Assembly (NCBI GenBank): GCA_016926255.1
Contig: JAFGOY010000014.1
Span: 1 to 39,025 of the forward strand
DNA: 39,025 nt
Direction: 5' to 3'
Source: Anaerolineae bacterium
GTDB taxonomy: Bacteria; Chloroflexota; Anaerolineae; Aggregatilineales; UBA3940
Both the position numbers and the translations under genes were made by a program. Position 1 is the stretch's first letter. The number at the start of each line of letters is the position of its first letter. The notes under the pieces are model-generated. The model worked only from the letters and a program-made list of their open reading frames with translations. It made no database searches and was not told the origin of the DNA. Positions 6,445 to 39,025 of this stretch are shown here, one piece after another.

Positions 6445-7422
6445 CTATAGATCGAACGCCCGCCTCACTGCCCGGCAGATTGCCAGGCTGATCCACAATC
6501 CCGGCTTCGGATCGCCCGCCCCTTTCAGCAGATTGAGTTTCCACGCGCCGGTAGTTAACTGCCGGTCGACAAACCAGTCGATCACCTCCTGAATGGGCCG
6601 GTTTCCCGCGTCGAAGCCCAGCCGGGTCAGCGAATCGAACGCCGACAGCAGATCGGTGAACCAGAACGGGAACGTAAACCGGTACCAGAAATCCTCGCCC
6701 TGCCTGCCGGGATATTCGCCCCGTTTAAACAGGCGCGTCATCAGGTATCGTCCGGCCTGCTGCGCCGCTTCGTGATCCCGATAGCGCGGATGCGCGGCGA
6801 AGGCCCGCAGCACGCAGCCGGTCACCAAGTGTGAGTTGGGTTTGCCCCGGTCGGGCTGGATCAGATCGGAGAACATGTTCTCCCGGCTGAGCTTCTCCCC
6901 TGCCGTCAGCGCCGGGATCGCCCAGCCGCCGCCCGCCTGCCGGATCGCGAGCAGCCAATCGAATCCTTTCTCGATACGCGGATCGTCGCCGTACCCGGCC
7001 TTGATCAGCAGTTCCATGATCCCGCCGCTGTAGTTCGGCGTGTACTGAGTCCCATAGATACCCCGGAAGTCGCCCTCCCCCGTCTGGAATTCGAACAGGA
7101 ATTCTGCCGCCTTTTGCAGCGGCGGATGATCGCGCGTCATTCCATACTTTTCGACCAGCACCCCCACCTGTCGATATGTTTCGATCTGGTCGTAGTTTTC
7201 CTCCGTCCTGACCTCGTCCTTCCCACCCGGATACTTCCACGATCCGTCGTCCCGCTGTTTCCTCAGAATCTTTTCCACGTAGGACAGCGCCCACAGATCG
7301 TCGACCGGGCCGGGGTCTTCGTCCAGCAGGTCACGGCGGGTGAAATACACCAGCGCCGGGTTGCCCGATTCGAGCAGCGGCCCGACCGGGTCGTATCGAA
7401 AACATGATCGCCAATTGCCCAT
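6445..7422 (-). CDS. Alpha/alpha-toroid (prenyltransferase/terpene-cyclase-fold) protein, copy 1
   Basis: The 325-residue protein is built of repeated helical pairs with QW-like signatures: QRDDGSWKYPGG, QTGEGDFRGIYG, IRQAGGGWAIP, TTGAWKL. This is the pattern of the alpha/alpha-toroid superfamily (squalene-hopene cyclases, prenyltransferases, pectate-lyase-like). The cyclase DXDD motif is absent and it is about half the length of a squalene-hopene cyclase, so it is not a complete triterpene cyclase. There is no signal peptide. A paralogue lies at 24223-25242; both begin with the same pattern (P-x-LLE..NP-x-V-x-YF-x-RDL). ATG at 7422 is preceded by AAGGAG. It is divergent from the glycosyltransferase with only 45 bp between starts, so the two may share a control region. 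Biochemical function unknown. Confidence 0.8.
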   Translation of the reverse strand: MGNWRSCFRYDPVGPLLESGNPALVYFTRRDLLDEDPGPVDDLWALSYVEKILRKQRDDGSWKYPGGKDEVRTEENYDQIETYRQVGVLVEKYGMTRDHPPLQKAAEFLFEFQTGEGDFRGIYGTQYTPNYSGGIMELLIKAGYGDDPRIEKGFDWLLAIRQAGGGWAIPALTAGEKLSRENMFSDLIQPDRGKPNSHLVTGCVLRAFAAHPRYRDHEAAQQAGRYLMTRLFKRGEYPGRQGEDFWYRFTFPFWFTDLLSAFDSLTRLGFDAGNRPIQEVIDWFVDRQLTTGAWKLNLLKGAGDPKPGLWISLAICRAVRRAFDL

Positions 7423-24222: not shown

Positions 24223-25242
24223 TTATGATGAATTGAGCCATTCGATAGGCACGATCCCCGAACGTTTCAGCACCCGCAGAGCGCGAAGCGTCACCCATTT
24301 GCTGGGTTTCCCTTTCTGCTCGATGTCGATCCACATTTTGCCGTTGTAGCTGTATCCCATCTTCCAGCGCCCCTGATCGTCCTGCTTCGAAAGCACCAGC
24401 CTGACCGCCCCATCCAGCCGGGGATCGTCGATCACCCCGGCCCCGGCCAGCGCTTCGAGATTGAGCAGCACGTCGGTGATATACCCTATCGGATAGCCAA
24501 ACTTGAACCAGTTCGAACTGATGTATTTGACATGGGGATAATCCGCCAGCGCGACGTTATAGCCCAGCAGGAAATCGACACATGCTTCAATCGCAGAATC
24601 AACGATTGGAGTTCGCTCCGCCGCCGTGACTCGATTCAGCGCCATCAGTGCCCGGATCGCACCCCAGGCGCAGGCCAGTCCACCGTTGTAATTGCAGACA
24701 AATTCTGGCCCCCGGAGGCCGGAATCGTAGTAGCGTTCGTAGCCATCGCCGGTCACCGACCGCGCCAGCGCGTCGATTGCGCGTTCGATCCGTTCATCGC
24801 CTGCATACCCCAGTGTGATCATCGCGTCGATCATGTTTCCCCATATGCAGTGAAGCGCACCGCTGGGCGATCCGTTGTGCGAGAACGTCCCGTTTTCTGT
24901 GTAGATATTGTCGAAGATCGTTTCAGCAGCCCGCCGCAGTCGTGGTTCCTGAGTATCGCAGCCAAGCTGGATGAGGAACATCACCTGCCACACGGTTCCA
25001 CGATATTTGGGGACGTAGGCCCGATCCGATCTGACCCAGTAGCCACCCGGCTCCTGCGCATCGAGGATCACCGGCACCGGGCCGCTCTGCATCACCGCCG
25101 CCTGCGCCTCGGCCACCTGTGGATCGTCGGCGGGCAGGTCGCGCAGATCGCGCAGGGCAAAATACCTCACGCCGGGGTTGGCGGAATCCGGTTCGAGCAG
25201 CCAGGGGATCGCGTTGGCGGTCAGCGTATGGTCACCGGTCAT
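24223..25242 (-). CDS. Alpha/alpha-toroid (prenyltransferase/terpene-cyclase-fold) protein, copy 2
   Basis: A 339-residue cytoplasmic protein with toroid repeats (DAQEPGGYWVRSD, YTENGTFSHNG, SKQDDQGRWKMGYSY) and the same N-terminal pattern as the protein at 6445 (PWLLEPDSANPGVRYFALRDL versus PLLESGNPALVYFTRRDL). A conserved Cys/His-rich middle (GALHCIWGNMIDAM, FVCNYNGGLACAWGAIRALM) could bind metal as in protein prenyltransferases, but this is speculative. No DXDD motif and no signal peptide. ATG 25242 has only a weak SD. It lies between the two lipoproteins that share a module, 79 bp after one and 31 bp before the other, suggesting one operon. Function unknown. Confidence 0.8.
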   Translation of the reverse strand: MTGDHTLTANAIPWLLEPDSANPGVRYFALRDLRDLPADDPQVAEAQAAVMQSGPVPVILDAQEPGGYWVRSDRAYVPKYRGTVWQVMFLIQLGCDTQEPRLRRAAETIFDNIYTENGTFSHNGSPSGALHCIWGNMIDAMITLGYAGDERIERAIDALARSVTGDGYERYYDSGLRGPEFVCNYNGGLACAWGAIRALMALNRVTAAERTPIVDSAIEACVDFLLGYNVALADYPHVKYISSNWFKFGYPIGYITDVLLNLEALAGAGVIDDPRLDGAVRLVLSKQDDQGRWKMGYSYNGKMWIDIEQKGKPSKWVTLRALRVLKRSGIVPIEWLNSS

Positions 25243-33938: not shown

Positions 33939-34016
33939 TCCCTCCCTCCGCTTTTCGATTTCCCACCCGGCGAGTATCATATCTCAAAACATCACCACCT
34001 GGGACGGGAGTGACAC

Positions 34017-34862
34017 ATGTTCAAACACTGGACCGATAACCCGATCTACGCGCGGCTGAAAAAGGCCGATAAACCCTGCGTCAAACCAGCAATGTGGATC
34101 ACTGGCATTATCGGCCTCGCCGGGTTGATCTATAGCATCTGGCTGCTGATCACTATCTCAGGCCTGGGCAATACATCGTCGGCCATCACTTCGATTATCA
34201 GAAGCATTCTCTCGACCATCACCTGGCTGCTGATACTGGTCATTCCGCTGATTGTCGCCATCACCGGCATTACCCTGACCGGCAAAGACATCAACAGCGA
34301 GTCCTACCAACTGGTCAGGATGACCGGGCTGTCGAACAAAACGCTGATACGGGGATATGCGCTGGCCGCCTGCCACCGGCAGCGGGTACTGATCGCGTTG
34401 GTCGCTGCCCTGTCGCCAACATCAGCGCTGCTGAACCTGCTGATTGAGGATTGGCCGGTTGCGCTGTGGCTGGCGATCCCAGCGGTACTGTTTGAAACAA
34501 TACAAAATCTGGCGCTTATCGTCATCATAACCTTTGCCGCAACCGGGCTGGCTCTGAAGCTGAAACGACCGGCGGTATCAATCGGAATCGTGCTGGGCAT
34601 CAGGCTGCTTTTCGGGCTGATTATCGCCCTGACACTTACAATGGCCTCCTTTCTCCTTGCCTTTCTGATGACCTGGCGAGCAGCCGGTAATTATGATGCT
34701 CTTTCCCGGCAGAGCGATATCTTCATGCTGATGGTCGTCCCCTGTACAAATGTCCTGCTGGCTCTGATACTGGCCGGAATCGCGTTATGGCTGATGCGGG
34801 ACAATCAGGCAGGCAGCAGCACTCAACAAGGAAGCGACCATGTTCAACCACTGGAACGATAA
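34017..34862 (+). CDS. Six-helix membrane protein, tandem paralogue A
   Basis: 281 residues. It starts MFKHWTDNPIYARLKKADK, then hydrophobic segments near 26-45 and 63-88, a conserved cytoplasmic-type loop (GKDINSESYQLVRMTGLSNK, then RGYALAACHRQRVL), and four more segments (~120-140, 146-175, 183-215, 243-262). The six-helix plan with a polar loop after helix 2 resembles ABC-2 transporter permeases, whose coupling loop sits there and often reads ..E.YELL..TPLS...I..GK. I therefore suspect an ABC-2-like permease, but no ATPase gene is in the window. The last 23 bp overlap paralogue B in another frame; the stop TAA lies inside B's codons for Asp-Asn. It is the most divergent of the three (K/R in place of B and C's A/K). 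Confidence 0.8.
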   Translation: MFKHWTDNPIYARLKKADKPCVKPAMWITGIIGLAGLIYSIWLLITISGLGNTSSAITSIIRSILSTITWLLILVIPLIVAITGITLTGKDINSESYQLVRMTGLSNKTLIRGYALAACHRQRVLIALVAALSPTSALLNLLIEDWPVALWLAIPAVLFETIQNLALIVIITFAATGLALKLKRPAVSIGIVLGIRLLFGLIIALTLTMASFLLAFLMTWRAAGNYDALSRQSDIFMLMVVPCTNVLLALILAGIALWLMRDNQAGSSTQQGSDHVQPLER

Positions 34863-35706
34863 CCCGATCTACGCCCGGCTGGCGAAAAAGGACAGCGCCT
34901 TCGTCAAACCCGTCTTCTGGATCGCCGGAATCGCCGGAGTCGCCGGGCTGATTATCTCCGCGTGGCACCTTTACGGTGTGATTGCCAACAACGCCACTTT
35001 ATCTGCGGGCGTTCTCCTTACCGCGTTTGTTGCCTGGCTGCTGATGGCAAGCGCCCCGGTCGCCGTCGCATTGACCGCCGCCACATTGACTGGCAGCGAC
35101 ATCGACAGTGAGGCGTATCAACTGGTGAAGATCACCGGCCTCTCGCGGCGAACCATCGCTAGAGGCTACCTGTTCGCCGCCTTCCGCCGACGACGCCTCC
35201 TCCTCACGCTGACCGTCGCCCTGGTACCCACCGCCATCGTCGGGATGCTGGCATCACTCCTTTCGACGGCCTACTCCCAGCCCTATTCGAACCCGGCTCC
35301 TCCCTCCATCGATATCGTGCTGCCCGATGTAACCCGCACCGTCACCATTCTATCCGCCTATGCGATTGGCTTCCTTGCCCTGACTATCATCCTCGGCGCA
35401 CTGAGCGTTGGATTGGCACTCTGGTGGAAAAAACAGGCGGCGACAGTCGCGGTTTCGGCCACCCTGTCGATTGTCGTCGTTCTGGTGGCGATCCTCAGCA
35501 TCCTCACACTGATCGGCGGCCCGGTAGCAAGTGGCACACTTTATTCGGAACTCACTTCGGCCCCCACCGAAATCTGGATCAGCGTTGGGGCCTGCGCCCT
35601 CCTGCCGACAACTCTCGCCGGACTATCTCTCTGGCTGATACGCATGGATAATACCACCACGACTAATCAAACAGGAGCCGATCATGTTCAAACACTGGAT
35701 GGATAA
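34840..35706 (+). CDS. Six-helix membrane protein, tandem paralogue B
   Basis: 288 residues, starting MFNHWNDNPIYARLAKKDSA. The N-terminal 60 residues are almost the same as in paralogue C (FVKPVFWIAGIAGVAGLII). Six hydrophobic segments, and the loop GSDIDSEAYQLVKITGLSRR followed by RGYLFAAFRRRRLLL. The start codon lies inside the end of A (23-nt overlap, +1 frame), with its SD (AAGGAAG) also inside A, so translation is probably coupled. Its own end overlaps C in the same way. Its C-terminal tail (TGADHVQTLDG) is encoded by the same bases as the SD and start of C, matching A's tail (GSDHVQPLER). Confidence 0.82.
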   Translation: MFNHWNDNPIYARLAKKDSAFVKPVFWIAGIAGVAGLIISAWHLYGVIANNATLSAGVLLTAFVAWLLMASAPVAVALTAATLTGSDIDSEAYQLVKITGLSRRTIARGYLFAAFRRRRLLLTLTVALVPTAIVGMLASLLSTAYSQPYSNPAPPSIDIVLPDVTRTVTILSAYAIGFLALTIILGALSVGLALWWKKQAATVAVSATLSIVVVLVAILSILTLIGGPVASGTLYSELTSAPTEIWISVGACALLPTTLAGLSLWLIRMDNTTTTNQTGADHVQTLDG

Positions 35707-36508
35707 CCCGATCTACACCCGCCTCGCCAAAAAGGACAGCTTCTTCGTCAAACCCGTATTCTGGATCGCCGGAATCGCCGGGGTCGCCGCGCTGATTATC
35801 TCCGCGTGGCACCTTTACAACGTCATCGCCCACAACGCCGAATTCACCCTCGGCATCTTCCTCACGGCGCTTACCGCCTGGTTCTTGATGCTGTCCAGCC
35901 CGGTCGCCGTCGCCCTGACCGCCGCATCAATCGCCGGGGGAGATATCAACAGTGAAGCCTGCCAACTGGTGAAGATCACCGGCCTGTCTCAGCGAACCTT
36001 TGCCCGTGGCTACCTGATGGCCGCCCTCCGTCGCCGGAGACTCCTCCTCGCGCTGACCGTCGCCCTGGCCCCCACCGCCATTGTTGGGATGCTCGGTGCT
36101 ATGCTGTCCATGTCCCACAACCTGGGTTACCTGGTTTATGCCAACCCGAACCAGGTCCCGGTCGCTTTCGTGCCAATGGATGTACTTGGCGTGGCCGCCA
36201 TGTTATCCGCCTATGGGATTGGCTTACTCGCGCTGACTGTCATCCTCGGTGCAATAGGTGTTGGCCTGGTGCTCTGGTGGAAAAAACAGGTCGCCGTTGC
36301 CGCCACGACTGCCCTGTCGACTGGCATGATCATGATCGGGGCTATTGTCATCCTTACGCTGACCGGCCCGCTGGTGGGTGGGATACGCTACTCAGAATTC
36401 CCTTCGCCCCTCAAATCGATAGCGATCACTACCGGGGTCTGTGCCCTGCTGCCAATGGCCCTCGTGGGGCTGTCCCTCTGGCTGATGCGCGCCGACCGGG
36501 ATGAATAA
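35684..36508 (+). CDS. Six-helix membrane protein, tandem paralogue C
   Basis: 274 residues, starting MFKHWMDNPIYTRLAKKDSF. Loop GGDINSEACQLVKITGLSQR followed by RGYLMAALRRRRLLL; later segments end at LVGLSLWLMRADRDE. Close to B, especially the first 150 residues and the LWWKKQ segment before helix 5. Start within B, with SD ACAGGAG before ATG. Unlike A and B it lacks the ~12-residue tail, because no fourth gene follows; the tails of A and B are thus by-products of the overlap. It ends 9 bp before the convergent LRR gene's stop. Confidence 0.82.
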   Translation: MFKHWMDNPIYTRLAKKDSFFVKPVFWIAGIAGVAALIISAWHLYNVIAHNAEFTLGIFLTALTAWFLMLSSPVAVALTAASIAGGDINSEACQLVKITGLSQRTFARGYLMAALRRRRLLLALTVALAPTAIVGMLGAMLSMSHNLGYLVYANPNQVPVAFVPMDVLGVAAMLSAYGIGLLALTVILGAIGVGLVLWWKKQVAVAATTALSTGMIMIGAIVILTLTGPLVGGIRYSEFPSPLKSIAITTGVCALLPMALVGLSLWLMRADRDE

Positions 36509-36517
36509 TCTAGACTC

Positions 36518-37354
36518 CTATTGCCCCTGATCCACCACGTCCGGGCATAGATCATCCGGATCGAGGAACAGGTCGGGCATCTGGCACAATCCGGGCGGAA
36601 TCTCGGTGATCGGATTACCGGCAAAATGCAGGAAACTCAGGTTAAGCTGGCCGATATCCGCAGATAGTTCAGTGATACGATTGTCCCGGATATCCAACCG
36701 TGTCAGGTTCGATAGCTGGCCGATTTCAGACGGCAGCACGGTCAGTTGATTATCCCACAGGTCCAGGTAGGACAGATTCGACAGTTGGCTTACTTCTTCG
36801 GGCAGGGCGGTCAGCCGGTTTTGACTGGCCGCCAGAGTCTCCAGACTCGCCAGCTGCCCGATCTCGGCGGGCAGTTCGGCCAGTTGATTGCCGCTCAGGT
36901 CCAGCACTTCCAGATTGCTCAGCAACCCGATTTCGGACGGCAGTTCGGTGAGTTGATTCTCGTTGAGATACAATCGCCTCAGGGCGGTCAATTGGCCGAT
37001 CTCAGGGGGCAGTTCCGCCAGCTGATTCCGATCCAGGTACAGGTATCTCAGCCCCGTCAGTTCGAAAACCTCGTCGGGCACCTCGCTGATAGCCAGGTTC
37101 GACAATGCGATCTGGCTGACACGCCCCCCGGCACACCTGACGCTTTCCCACGCGCAGGGCTTGCAGACTCCCTGCTCATCTTCCACGATTTCCCCGCCGA
37201 CCGCCCTGTCGATGGCGATCAACGTCTCGTATTCGTCAACCGATAGATAGAGATCGTCCGTCTTCTGGCATCTCGCCCCGACGGAACCACACCCTACCAG
37301 CGAGACCATCAACGCAGTGACCACAATCAATCGTACAAATCGTCTCTTCTTCAT
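36518..37354 (-). CDS. Leucine-rich-repeat lipoprotein, copy 1
   Basis: 278 residues. Signal MKKRRFVRLIVVTALMVSLVGC is typical (20-residue portion MKKRRFVRLIVVTALMVSLV then Gly-Cys), lipobox SLVGC. The N-terminal region before the repeats (EYETLIAIDRAVGG, then CAWESVRCAGGRVSQIAL) resembles the plant LRR N-cap (D-x-ALL...C-x-W-x-GV-x-C...GRV-x-x-L). About eight 23-residue repeats follow, of the L-x-x-L-x-L-x-x-N-x-L-x-x-LP-x-EI-x-x-L type. A C-terminal cap NPITEIPPGLC...DDLC closes the solenoid and is shared by all three LRR proteins here. A binding scaffold outside the cell; ligand unknown. ATG 37354 overlaps the upstream LRR gene's stop (ATGA). Confidence 0.9.
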   Translation of the reverse strand: MKKRRFVRLIVVTALMVSLVGCGSVGARCQKTDDLYLSVDEYETLIAIDRAVGGEIVEDEQGVCKPCAWESVRCAGGRVSQIALSNLAISEVPDEVFELTGLRYLYLDRNQLAELPPEIGQLTALRRLYLNENQLTELPSEIGLLSNLEVLDLSGNQLAELPAEIGQLASLETLAASQNRLTALPEEVSQLSNLSYLDLWDNQLTVLPSEIGQLSNLTRLDIRDNRITELSADIGQLNLSFLHFAGNPITEIPPGLCQMPDLFLDPDDLCPDVVDQGQ

Positions 37355-38166
37355 TGATCCTCACACAACCCCGCCGGATCGATTCGCAGATCGGGCATCG
37401 CGCAGATTTCCGGCGGAATCTCGGTGATCGGGTTGCCGGTGACGTTGATGTATTCCAGATCGGGCATCTGGCTGATTTCGGAGGGAAGTTCGGTAAGCAG
37501 ATTTCCACCGAGATACAAATGGGTCAAACTTTGTAACTGCTCGATTTCGGGCGGGAGTTCAGTTAACTCATTGTCACTGAGAAACAGAACCTGCAAGTCT
37601 GACATCTCGACAACTGCAGGGGGCAGTGCCGTTAAGTTGTTTTCGCTGAGGCCCAGGTGTGTCAAACCTGACAACTGGCTAAATTCGGCAGGCAGATCGG
37701 TAAGTCGATTGTCCCTCAGATACAGAATCTGCAAATGGCTCAGACAACTCACTTCAATGGGCAGTTCAGTCAGCCGGTTTCCAACGAGATTCAACAATAC
37801 CAGTTCTTTCAGTTGAGCAATCTCAGGAGGCACCCGGCTGATACCCTGTTGACGTATGCCCAGATCAACAATGTGCCCGCCTGAACAATTGGCATATGTA
37901 AAAGCTCGCCCTGTGAAAGCACAGGGCGATGGGACATACCTGCACGGCCACACTCCGGTTGCTGAGATGAATGACGTCCCCGCAGCTTTATCAATCGCCA
38001 CAAGCGCGTCATACTCGCTCGTCGGTATCCCGATATTCGACTGTCCGCTGTACTTCGCCTGACAGCTTGCCACTGCCGCTTTGGGCGTCCAGCCGCTCGC
38101 GCACCCCGCCAGCCCGACTATCAGCGCGGTGACGATACCCAGCGGCACGAATCGCCTCTTCATCAT
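37351..38166 (-). CDS. Leucine-rich-repeat lipoprotein, copy 2
   Basis: 271 residues, signal MMKRRFVPLGIVTALIVGLA then Gly-Cys (lipobox GLAGC). N-cap-like region: EYDALVAIDKAAG, then two cysteine-containing stretches (PCRYVPSPCAF, YANCSGGHIVDLGI). About seven LRRs (NRLTELPIEV, DNRLTDLPAEF, ENNLTALPPAV, DNELTELPPEI, GNLLTELPSEI) and the C-cap NPITEIPPEIC...AGLC. The stop overlaps the start of copy 1 by four bases, so these two form one translationally coupled unit. The start ATG 38166 (or 38163) lacks a strong SD but gives a perfect lipoprotein signal. Confidence 0.9.
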   Translation of the reverse strand: MMKRRFVPLGIVTALIVGLAGCASGWTPKAAVASCQAKYSGQSNIGIPTSEYDALVAIDKAAGTSFISATGVWPCRYVPSPCAFTGRAFTYANCSGGHIVDLGIRQQGISRVPPEIAQLKELVLLNLVGNRLTELPIEVSCLSHLQILYLRDNRLTDLPAEFSQLSGLTHLGLSENNLTALPPAVVEMSDLQVLFLSDNELTELPPEIEQLQSLTHLYLGGNLLTELPSEISQMPDLEYINVTGNPITEIPPEICAMPDLRIDPAGLCEDQ

Positions 38167-38289: not shown

Positions 38290-39025
38290 TCACTCCTCAC
38301 ACAACCCCGCTGGCTCAACTATAAGTCCCGGTTTTTGGCAGACTTCATGTGGAAGTTTCGTGATTGGGTTGCCAAGAAGCCCCAAAATAGTCAGGTCGGG
38401 AATTTGGCCAACCTCTGGTGGAAGTTCGGTCAATTGATTGTAATTAAGAAATAAGTAATCAAGATTTACCAGTTGCTCGATTTCTGGAGGTAGTTCCGTT
38501 AAATTGTTTCCTTCAAGATACAACCTATCTAATTCTGATAAACAGATCAATTCGGAAGGCAGTTCATGCAACTTGTTATCTTCAATCCAGAGAACCTGCA
38601 AACCTGCCAGTTGCTCAAACTCAGTTGGCAGTCCAGTCAGTTGGTTTCCACCAACATACATGACATTCAAGTTTGTTAGTTGCCCTATTTCAGGGGGAAG
38701 TTCAGTTAGCTGGTTTCCGCTGATATCCAATATTCTCAACTTTGGAAGTTGACATATCTCAGGTGTGAGTTCCGTCAGGCGGTTCCCCATAAGATGCAAA
38801 TAGATAAGGTTTGACAGTTGTCCAATTGAAGGAGAAAGTACAGCCAGTCGATTTACACTAAGGTCCAATGTATCCAGGTTTGATAGATGTCCAATTTCGG
38901 GAGGTAGATCAATCAGATGGTTATTATTCAGATATAACGATTTTGTTGGCGAAGTCCCCGAAGTATACTGGCGGAAAAACGGGAGAAGCCAGCCATGCTC
39001 CAACCGAGCACCAATCACGAGATAC
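38290..39025 (-). CDS. Leucine-rich-repeat protein, copy 3 (5' end missing or beyond the window)
   Basis: About nine LRRs (NNNHLIDLPPEI, SGNQLTELPPEI, GGNQLTGLPTEF, YNQLTELPPEV) and the C-cap NPITKLPHEVC...AGLC shared with copies 1 and 2. No signal peptide or N-cap is seen: before the first repeat the frame reads non-LRR sequence (LLPFFRQYTSGTSPTKS) and stays open to the window edge. An in-frame GTG at 39018 has no SD. G+C is far lower (about 42% in a sampled 60 bp) than in copy 1 (about 67%), and the composition rises again around 38945 where the LRR stops. Either the gene continues outside, or its 5' part was replaced and this is a remnant. Confidence 0.7.
   Translation of the reverse strand, partial: YLVIGARLEHGWLLPFFRQYTSGTSPTKSLYLNNNHLIDLPPEIGHLSNLDTLDLSVNRLAVLSPSIGQLSNLIYLHLMGNRLTELTPEICQLPKLRILDISGNQLTELPPEIGQLTNLNVMYVGGNQLTGLPTEFEQLAGLQVLWIEDNKLHELPSELICLSELDRLYLEGNNLTELPPEIEQLVNLDYLFLNYNQLTELPPEVGQIPDLTILGLLGNPITKLPHEVCQKPGLIVEPAGLCEE
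38943..38969 (+). promoter_or_regulatory. Possible promoter for a plus-strand gene at the window end
   Basis: TTGTTG (38943-38948) and TATACT (38964-38969) with a 15-bp spacer, followed by GGGAGAAG and ATG at 38995. The spacing is short; support is modest. Confidence 0.25.
38995..39025 (+). CDS. Possible start of a plus-strand gene, cut by the window end
   Basis: ATG 38995 has GGGAG 9 nt upstream and a promoter-like pair further up; only MLQPSTNHEI is visible. If real it conflicts with the minus-strand LRR frame and supports the idea that the latter is truncated. Too short to judge alone. Confidence 0.2.
   Translation, partial: MLQPSTNHEI

Follow-up and report, generated by a model that had tools for sequence, protein, structure and literature searches.

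Three tandem ABC-2-like membrane proteins with a repeated 23-nt gene overlap in an Anaerolineae genome

Canonical ABC-2 permeases, as represented by PF12679 and PF12698 and by the ABC-MoxR-DUF58 operons of Anaerolineae (NPxxKELRxRMRG), have in common with the three proteins described here an NP elbow, six transmembrane (TM) helices and an LLxxTxLS loop after TM2. In the canonical permeases this region carries SGExERxT and GK, a match to PF12679 is obtained in the best cases and an ATPase is encoded beside the permease, whereas the proteins of the present locus show DxxSE, GY and RxR, have no Pfam match and lack an adjoining ATPase. NosY, the ABC-2 type permease of NosDFY, is the top Foldseek match to the model of one of the three proteins and likewise has a coupling helix between TM2 and TM3, but it works with the NosF ATPase and with NosD, and such genes are absent here. 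Type V transmembrane domains (TMDs) contain re-entrant helices between TM5 and TM6 (PMC8386196). Within the literature that was searched, nothing was found on orphan ABC-2 permeases or on NosDFY structures.

The window, i.e. the whole 39,025-nt contig analysed, contains three genes in tandem on the forward strand, A (34017-34862, 281 aa), B (34840-35706, 288 aa) and C (35684-36508, 274 aa), which encode ABC-2-like six-TM paralogues. The A/B overlap (34840-34862, +), where the tail of A is read across the start of B, and the B/C overlap (35684-35706, +), which is collinear with it, both measure exactly 23 nt and share the same phase, and the stop codons of A and B are both the TAA within GATAAC. 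All three proteins start with MF(K/N)HWxDNPIY and have the loop D-I-(N/D)-S-E-x-x-Q-L-V-x-x-TGLS in common, and C, which terminates at LWLMRADRDE, lacks the overlap tail. On each of these points (the tandem paralogues and their equal overlaps in one phase, the shared start motif and loop, and the missing tail of the last copy) the ORF coordinates, stops and protein sequences agree with the initial annotation of this DNA. Each gene is preceded by its own Shine-Dalgarno-like sequence on the same strand, namely GGGAG for A (34006-34010), AAGGAAG for B (34828-34834, within A) and AGGAG for C (35673-35677, within B). B and C are 63% identical at the protein level, and A is about 40% identical to either of them (about 38-41% in the comparison with B). 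The dN/dS ratio between B and C, about 0.42 by NG86 and 0.22 by YN00, indicates purifying selection, and therefore B and C are maintained genes. Promoter and terminator scans gave signals that were not usefully above those of shuffled sequences. Elsewhere in the window, two proteins encoded on the reverse strand at 6445-7422 and 24223-25242 are alike in length and their starts, PLLESGNPALVYFTRRDL and WLLEPDSANPGVRYFALRDL, are alike by eye, and they may be paralogues.

A profile of A, B and C first recovered homologues within their own taxonomic family and order, and a curated alignment of 26 members (A3) then served as the basis of the family profile. Sequence searches of Pfam, NCBIfam and the PDB gave no usable name for the family, the rows corresponding to the Mas receptor being set aside as probably compositional, and a scan of the 26 members with the curated ABC-2 models PF01061, PF12679, PF12698 and PF12730 produced a sole match, to PF12698, whose E value of 0.25 is far under the cut-off. 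The A3 profile matches, with E values of about 1e-6 to 1e-7, permeases that adjoin ABC ATPases, recognised by Walker A and signature patterns, in further genomes of this class. A second alignment (A4) comprised 20 canonical ABC-2 permeases from those operons, most of them encoded beside ABC ATPases; several match PF12679 or PF12698, and one ATPase neighbour matches PF00005. When A3 and A4 were compared with hhalign, a probability of 97 and an E value of 6e-11 were obtained over 181-183 columns, while the controls, one reversed and 12 column-shuffled alignments, gave E values of 0.03 to 0.95.

For B, AlphaFold2 (pLDDT 85, pTM 0.80) predicted a helix at residues 9-17, regarded as the elbow, followed by six long TM helices, with a short helix at residues 91-98 between TM2 and TM3 that would be the coupling helix and is conserved in the family. 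On this reading, the N-terminal elbow helix would be placed at DNPIY and the coupling helix would be cytoplasmic. The model of B has no re-entrant helices between TM5 and TM6, only about nine residues separating helices 199-231 and 241-272. The top two Foldseek rows were NosY, with probabilities of 0.95 and 0.93 and weak E values of 0.17-0.2. The best 50 VIA rows, which include NosY, ABCG, ABCA, CcmB, LptG and a mycobacterial efflux pump, were all TMDs of ABC exporters; their Z scores (8.5-10.4) are below the value of 13 advised for helical proteins, so the weight of this search lies in the consistency of the list and not in the score. Taken together, the profile-profile comparison, the model with its structure searches and the existence of distant members in ABC operons make it very probable that A, B and C are ABC-2-like membrane proteins, as had been suggested from their anatomy and from the loop after helix 2, and the structural similarity to ABC-2 permeases whose absence would have refuted that suggestion was found, at modest scores. 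The three proteins would be transmembrane subunits that share ancestry with ABC-2-type exporter permeases and have diverged from them, and their fold would be type V-like. The absence of a Pfam match and a structural Z of about 10, modest for helical proteins, would also fit an unrelated six-TM family whose ABC-2 likeness arose by convergence of helical hairpins. Nevertheless, such an origin is very improbable, since the profile-profile match is far beyond the shuffled controls, the NP elbow and the LTxLS loop lie at matching places in the family and in the ABC-2 permeases, and operon-resident family members exist.

The two equal overlaps raised a question about their origin. The tails of A and B, taken from the conserved TGGCTGAT to the stop codon, are 75 nt each and collinear without any indel, and 22 of their 44 bases outside the overlap are identical, a level that 0.14% of shuffles reach. 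In the tree, A, B and C are monophyletic (99/96), and B and C are sisters (99/95). Because the A and B tails are collinear and alike in sequence, the two equal overlaps would not be two independent events, and there are good grounds in the nucleotide pattern to regard them as a duplicated junction, most simply explained by one copied origin; that both measure 23 nt would then reflect a single ancestral junction copied during gene duplication. Two local tandem duplications would have generated the three-gene array, the first creating the overlapping junction and the second copying it. The initial annotation had also proposed a two-frame constraint on the start motif. This proposal was rejected, because the start of A carries the same ATGTTCAAACACTGG..GATAACCCG with no gene of annotated length overlapping it from upstream, where the equivalent frame is open for only 46 codons, and DNP starts are also present in unlinked single homologues. 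The presence of the Asp-Asn codons in the non-overlapped A and of DNP starts in unlinked homologues suggests that the motif is held by the protein, as part of the elbow helix, and that the overlap follows from the motif.

The A3 profile revealed members in each of the nine genomes searched of the taxonomic family (E up to 1e-4) and in 23 of the 154 genomes of the order (E up to 1e-8); one scan of genome contigs had returned no relative. Elsewhere, the family loci consist mostly of single genes without an ATPase neighbour, the search for an ATPase at these loci having used only Walker A and signature patterns, on several contigs short enough for a nearby one to be missed. One locus (G001:C215) has a tandem pair with a short gap between stop and start, plus a third copy, and further clusters were found at L140:325-1791 (G052:C225), in L135 (G040:C294) and in L136 (G342:C37). 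The 23-nt overlap was not repeated in any other family cluster looked at (G001, G040, G052 and G342). A, B and C belong to an Anaerolineae family of mostly orphan genes without an adjoining ATPase, and since the homologues are mostly single and the tandem pair of G001 has no overlap, both the array and the overlaps seem to be a local feature of the lineage.

This distribution bears on the proposal of the initial annotation that A, B and C form a heteromeric permease-like complex produced by coupled translation, a reading in which coupling over the 23-nt overlaps would fix the subunit ratio. Homologous loci occurring as single genes without the overlap had been named as a finding that would refute it, and most homologous loci are of this kind, the G001 pair being non-overlapping. 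The overlaps are real, and coupling would be compatible with an overlap of 23 nt in which the downstream gene has its own Shine-Dalgarno site within the upstream one. However, the common coupling overlaps, which are enriched in heteromeric complexes, are of 4 and 1 nt and not of 23 (PMC10666635), each of the three genes has a Shine-Dalgarno-like site of its own, the junction was apparently copied along with the gene, and an ABC transporter with two TMDs has no place for three subunits unless alternative pairings occur. A coupled heteromer is therefore an unlikely explanation of the array.

The whole 39-kb window contig contains no ABC ATPase and no PF00005 match, which extends to its full length the earlier remark that no obvious ATPase lies nearby. 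The nearest PF00005-type ORF, on the probably linked contig C21, encodes a dual-NBD protein that scores above the cut-off for ABC-F (translation-factor type) and was ruled out as a partner. An ABC ORF of about 600 aa located a few kb from an orphan, present only at the two syntenic loci G001:C426 and G008:C207, was also discarded, its length and N-terminus resembling those of an exporter with its own TM region. With no ABC ATPase on the window contig and the C21 ORF being ABC-F, the orphans, if they are energised, would have to be energised in trans.

Distant family members were found within operons. Contig C15 of the same genome carries, all in one direction, genes for an ABC ATPase, a family member, a canonical ABC-2 permease, another membrane ORF, MoxR and DUF58 (L111:56-7397). 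The family member, which lies directly between the ATPase and the ABC-2 permease, was detected with 42.6 bits and an E value of 2.6e-11 (Z=10,000), and its reversed sequence was not reported as a match. A similar operon in G001:C272 (L143), with MoxR and an extra ORF between the two permeases, has a distant family member beside the ATPase (E 1.4e-12). The small NP-type permeases of C15 and G001 (L111:5496-6443 and L143:5131-6072) match the family profile over most of their length and resemble the family in an NPLL elbow and in LWRLR, which takes the place of ALxRxR, but differ from it in the adjoining ABC ATPase, a longer N-terminus and a separate tree branch. Both operons contain two different permeases for one ATPase. 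In the tree the operon-resident members fall apart from the orphans at a weak split (77/53), and with no supported grouping a direct descent of the orphans from the operon-resident members does not have tree support. A, B and C may form homo- or heterodimers in the membrane and may still be energised by a nucleotide-binding subunit encoded elsewhere, for which the first candidate would be the ATPase of the C15 operon (L111:6447-7397), beside the distant family member.

The segment through which such an ATPase would dock is the coupling loop, at 34287-34346 in A (residues 91-110), 35098-35157 in B (residues 87-106, including the model helix 91-98) and 35942-36001 in C (residues 87-106), all on the forward strand. 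Its mean conservation is 2.08 bits compared with 1.1-1.3 in the TM helices, so that only the N-terminal elbow ranks before it as a conserved stretch of the family, and this conservation of the putative docking segment among orphans favours a retained ATPase contact. Within the same segment, the invariant Lys of the canonical permeases (GK) is replaced by Tyr (GY) in the family, and the invariant Glu by Asp, substitutions that may have changed or abolished coupling. Judged from the sequences, the chance that an ATPase docks on A, B and C in trans falls somewhat short of even. The two substitutions also suit an ATP-independent derivative in which the ABC-2 fold was kept and ATPase coupling was lost, with A, B and C acting as anchors, sensors or scaffolds, for example for extracytoplasmic leucine-rich repeat (LRR) lipoproteins. 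Such a derivative would agree with the orphan state of the family at nearly all loci seen and with a permease-like domain in G008 that is fused to a seventh TM helix and a long LRR domain; the high conservation of the coupling segment and the distant members that still adjoin an ABC ATPase argue in the other direction, and we consider the loss of ATPase coupling a serious but less probable alternative.

Three LRR lipoprotein genes adjoin the array on the reverse strand. The first (36518-37354), convergent with C, encodes a signal with Cys and an LRR domain; it is followed by the second (37351-38166) and by the 3' part of the third (38290-38938), which is interrupted at position 38938 by GATTTTGTTGGCGAAGTC. 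This 18-bp end repeat and a 7-bp putative target duplication, ATATAAC, form the end (38932-38956, no strand assigned) of an insertion-sequence-like element that runs on to the window end (38932-39025) and has its counterpart at the end of contig C21 (G000:C21:17547-17639, L041:10548-10640). In the rest of the genome GATTTTGTTGGCGAAGTC recurs nowhere but close to the ends of contigs C21 and C20, and the copy on C21 interrupts the 5' half of an LRR lipoprotein, apparently the 5' part of the third one. GTTATAT is common to both halves at the break, and their in-frame join yields one LRR protein; C21 and the window contig (C36) are therefore predicted to be neighbours across one insertion element. 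The family member on C21 (C21:13516-14325) would then be a fourth paralogue of the same cluster, separated from C by about 6 kb and the element. The fusion in G008:C229 (L150:3478-5772, reverse strand) is a 764-aa ORF whose N-terminal domain matches the six-TM family (E 8e-16) and which differs from it in carrying the seventh TM helix and the long LRR domain in one chain. The location of the array beside three LRR lipoproteins, together with this fusion, suggests that A, B and C would act together with the adjoining lipoproteins. Since no LRR gene is located near most loci of the family, the association being limited to this locus and the fusion, a functional partnership stays a lead, and we advance it tentatively.

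Considered as a whole, the best explanation, which we hold to be slightly better than even, is that A, B and C are ABC-2-derived proteins, locally triplicated, which would be energised in trans and would act with LRR lipoproteins. It is conceivable, at rather long odds, that the ABC-2-derived domain now serves as a partner of extracytoplasmic LRR lipoproteins, either free of an ATPase or sharing one, in a surface-sensing or adhesion module whose genes multiply together and are sometimes fused. For the study of overlapping genes, the locus indicates that identical overlaps may recur because a junction was copied, and that they are not necessarily evidence of dual-frame selection. For this family, it raises the question of whether the membrane domain of an exporter may share an ATPase in trans or may have found a use without one, a question that can be tested in a family which lacks a Pfam model, has members in all nine genomes searched of its taxonomic family and includes one LRR fusion.
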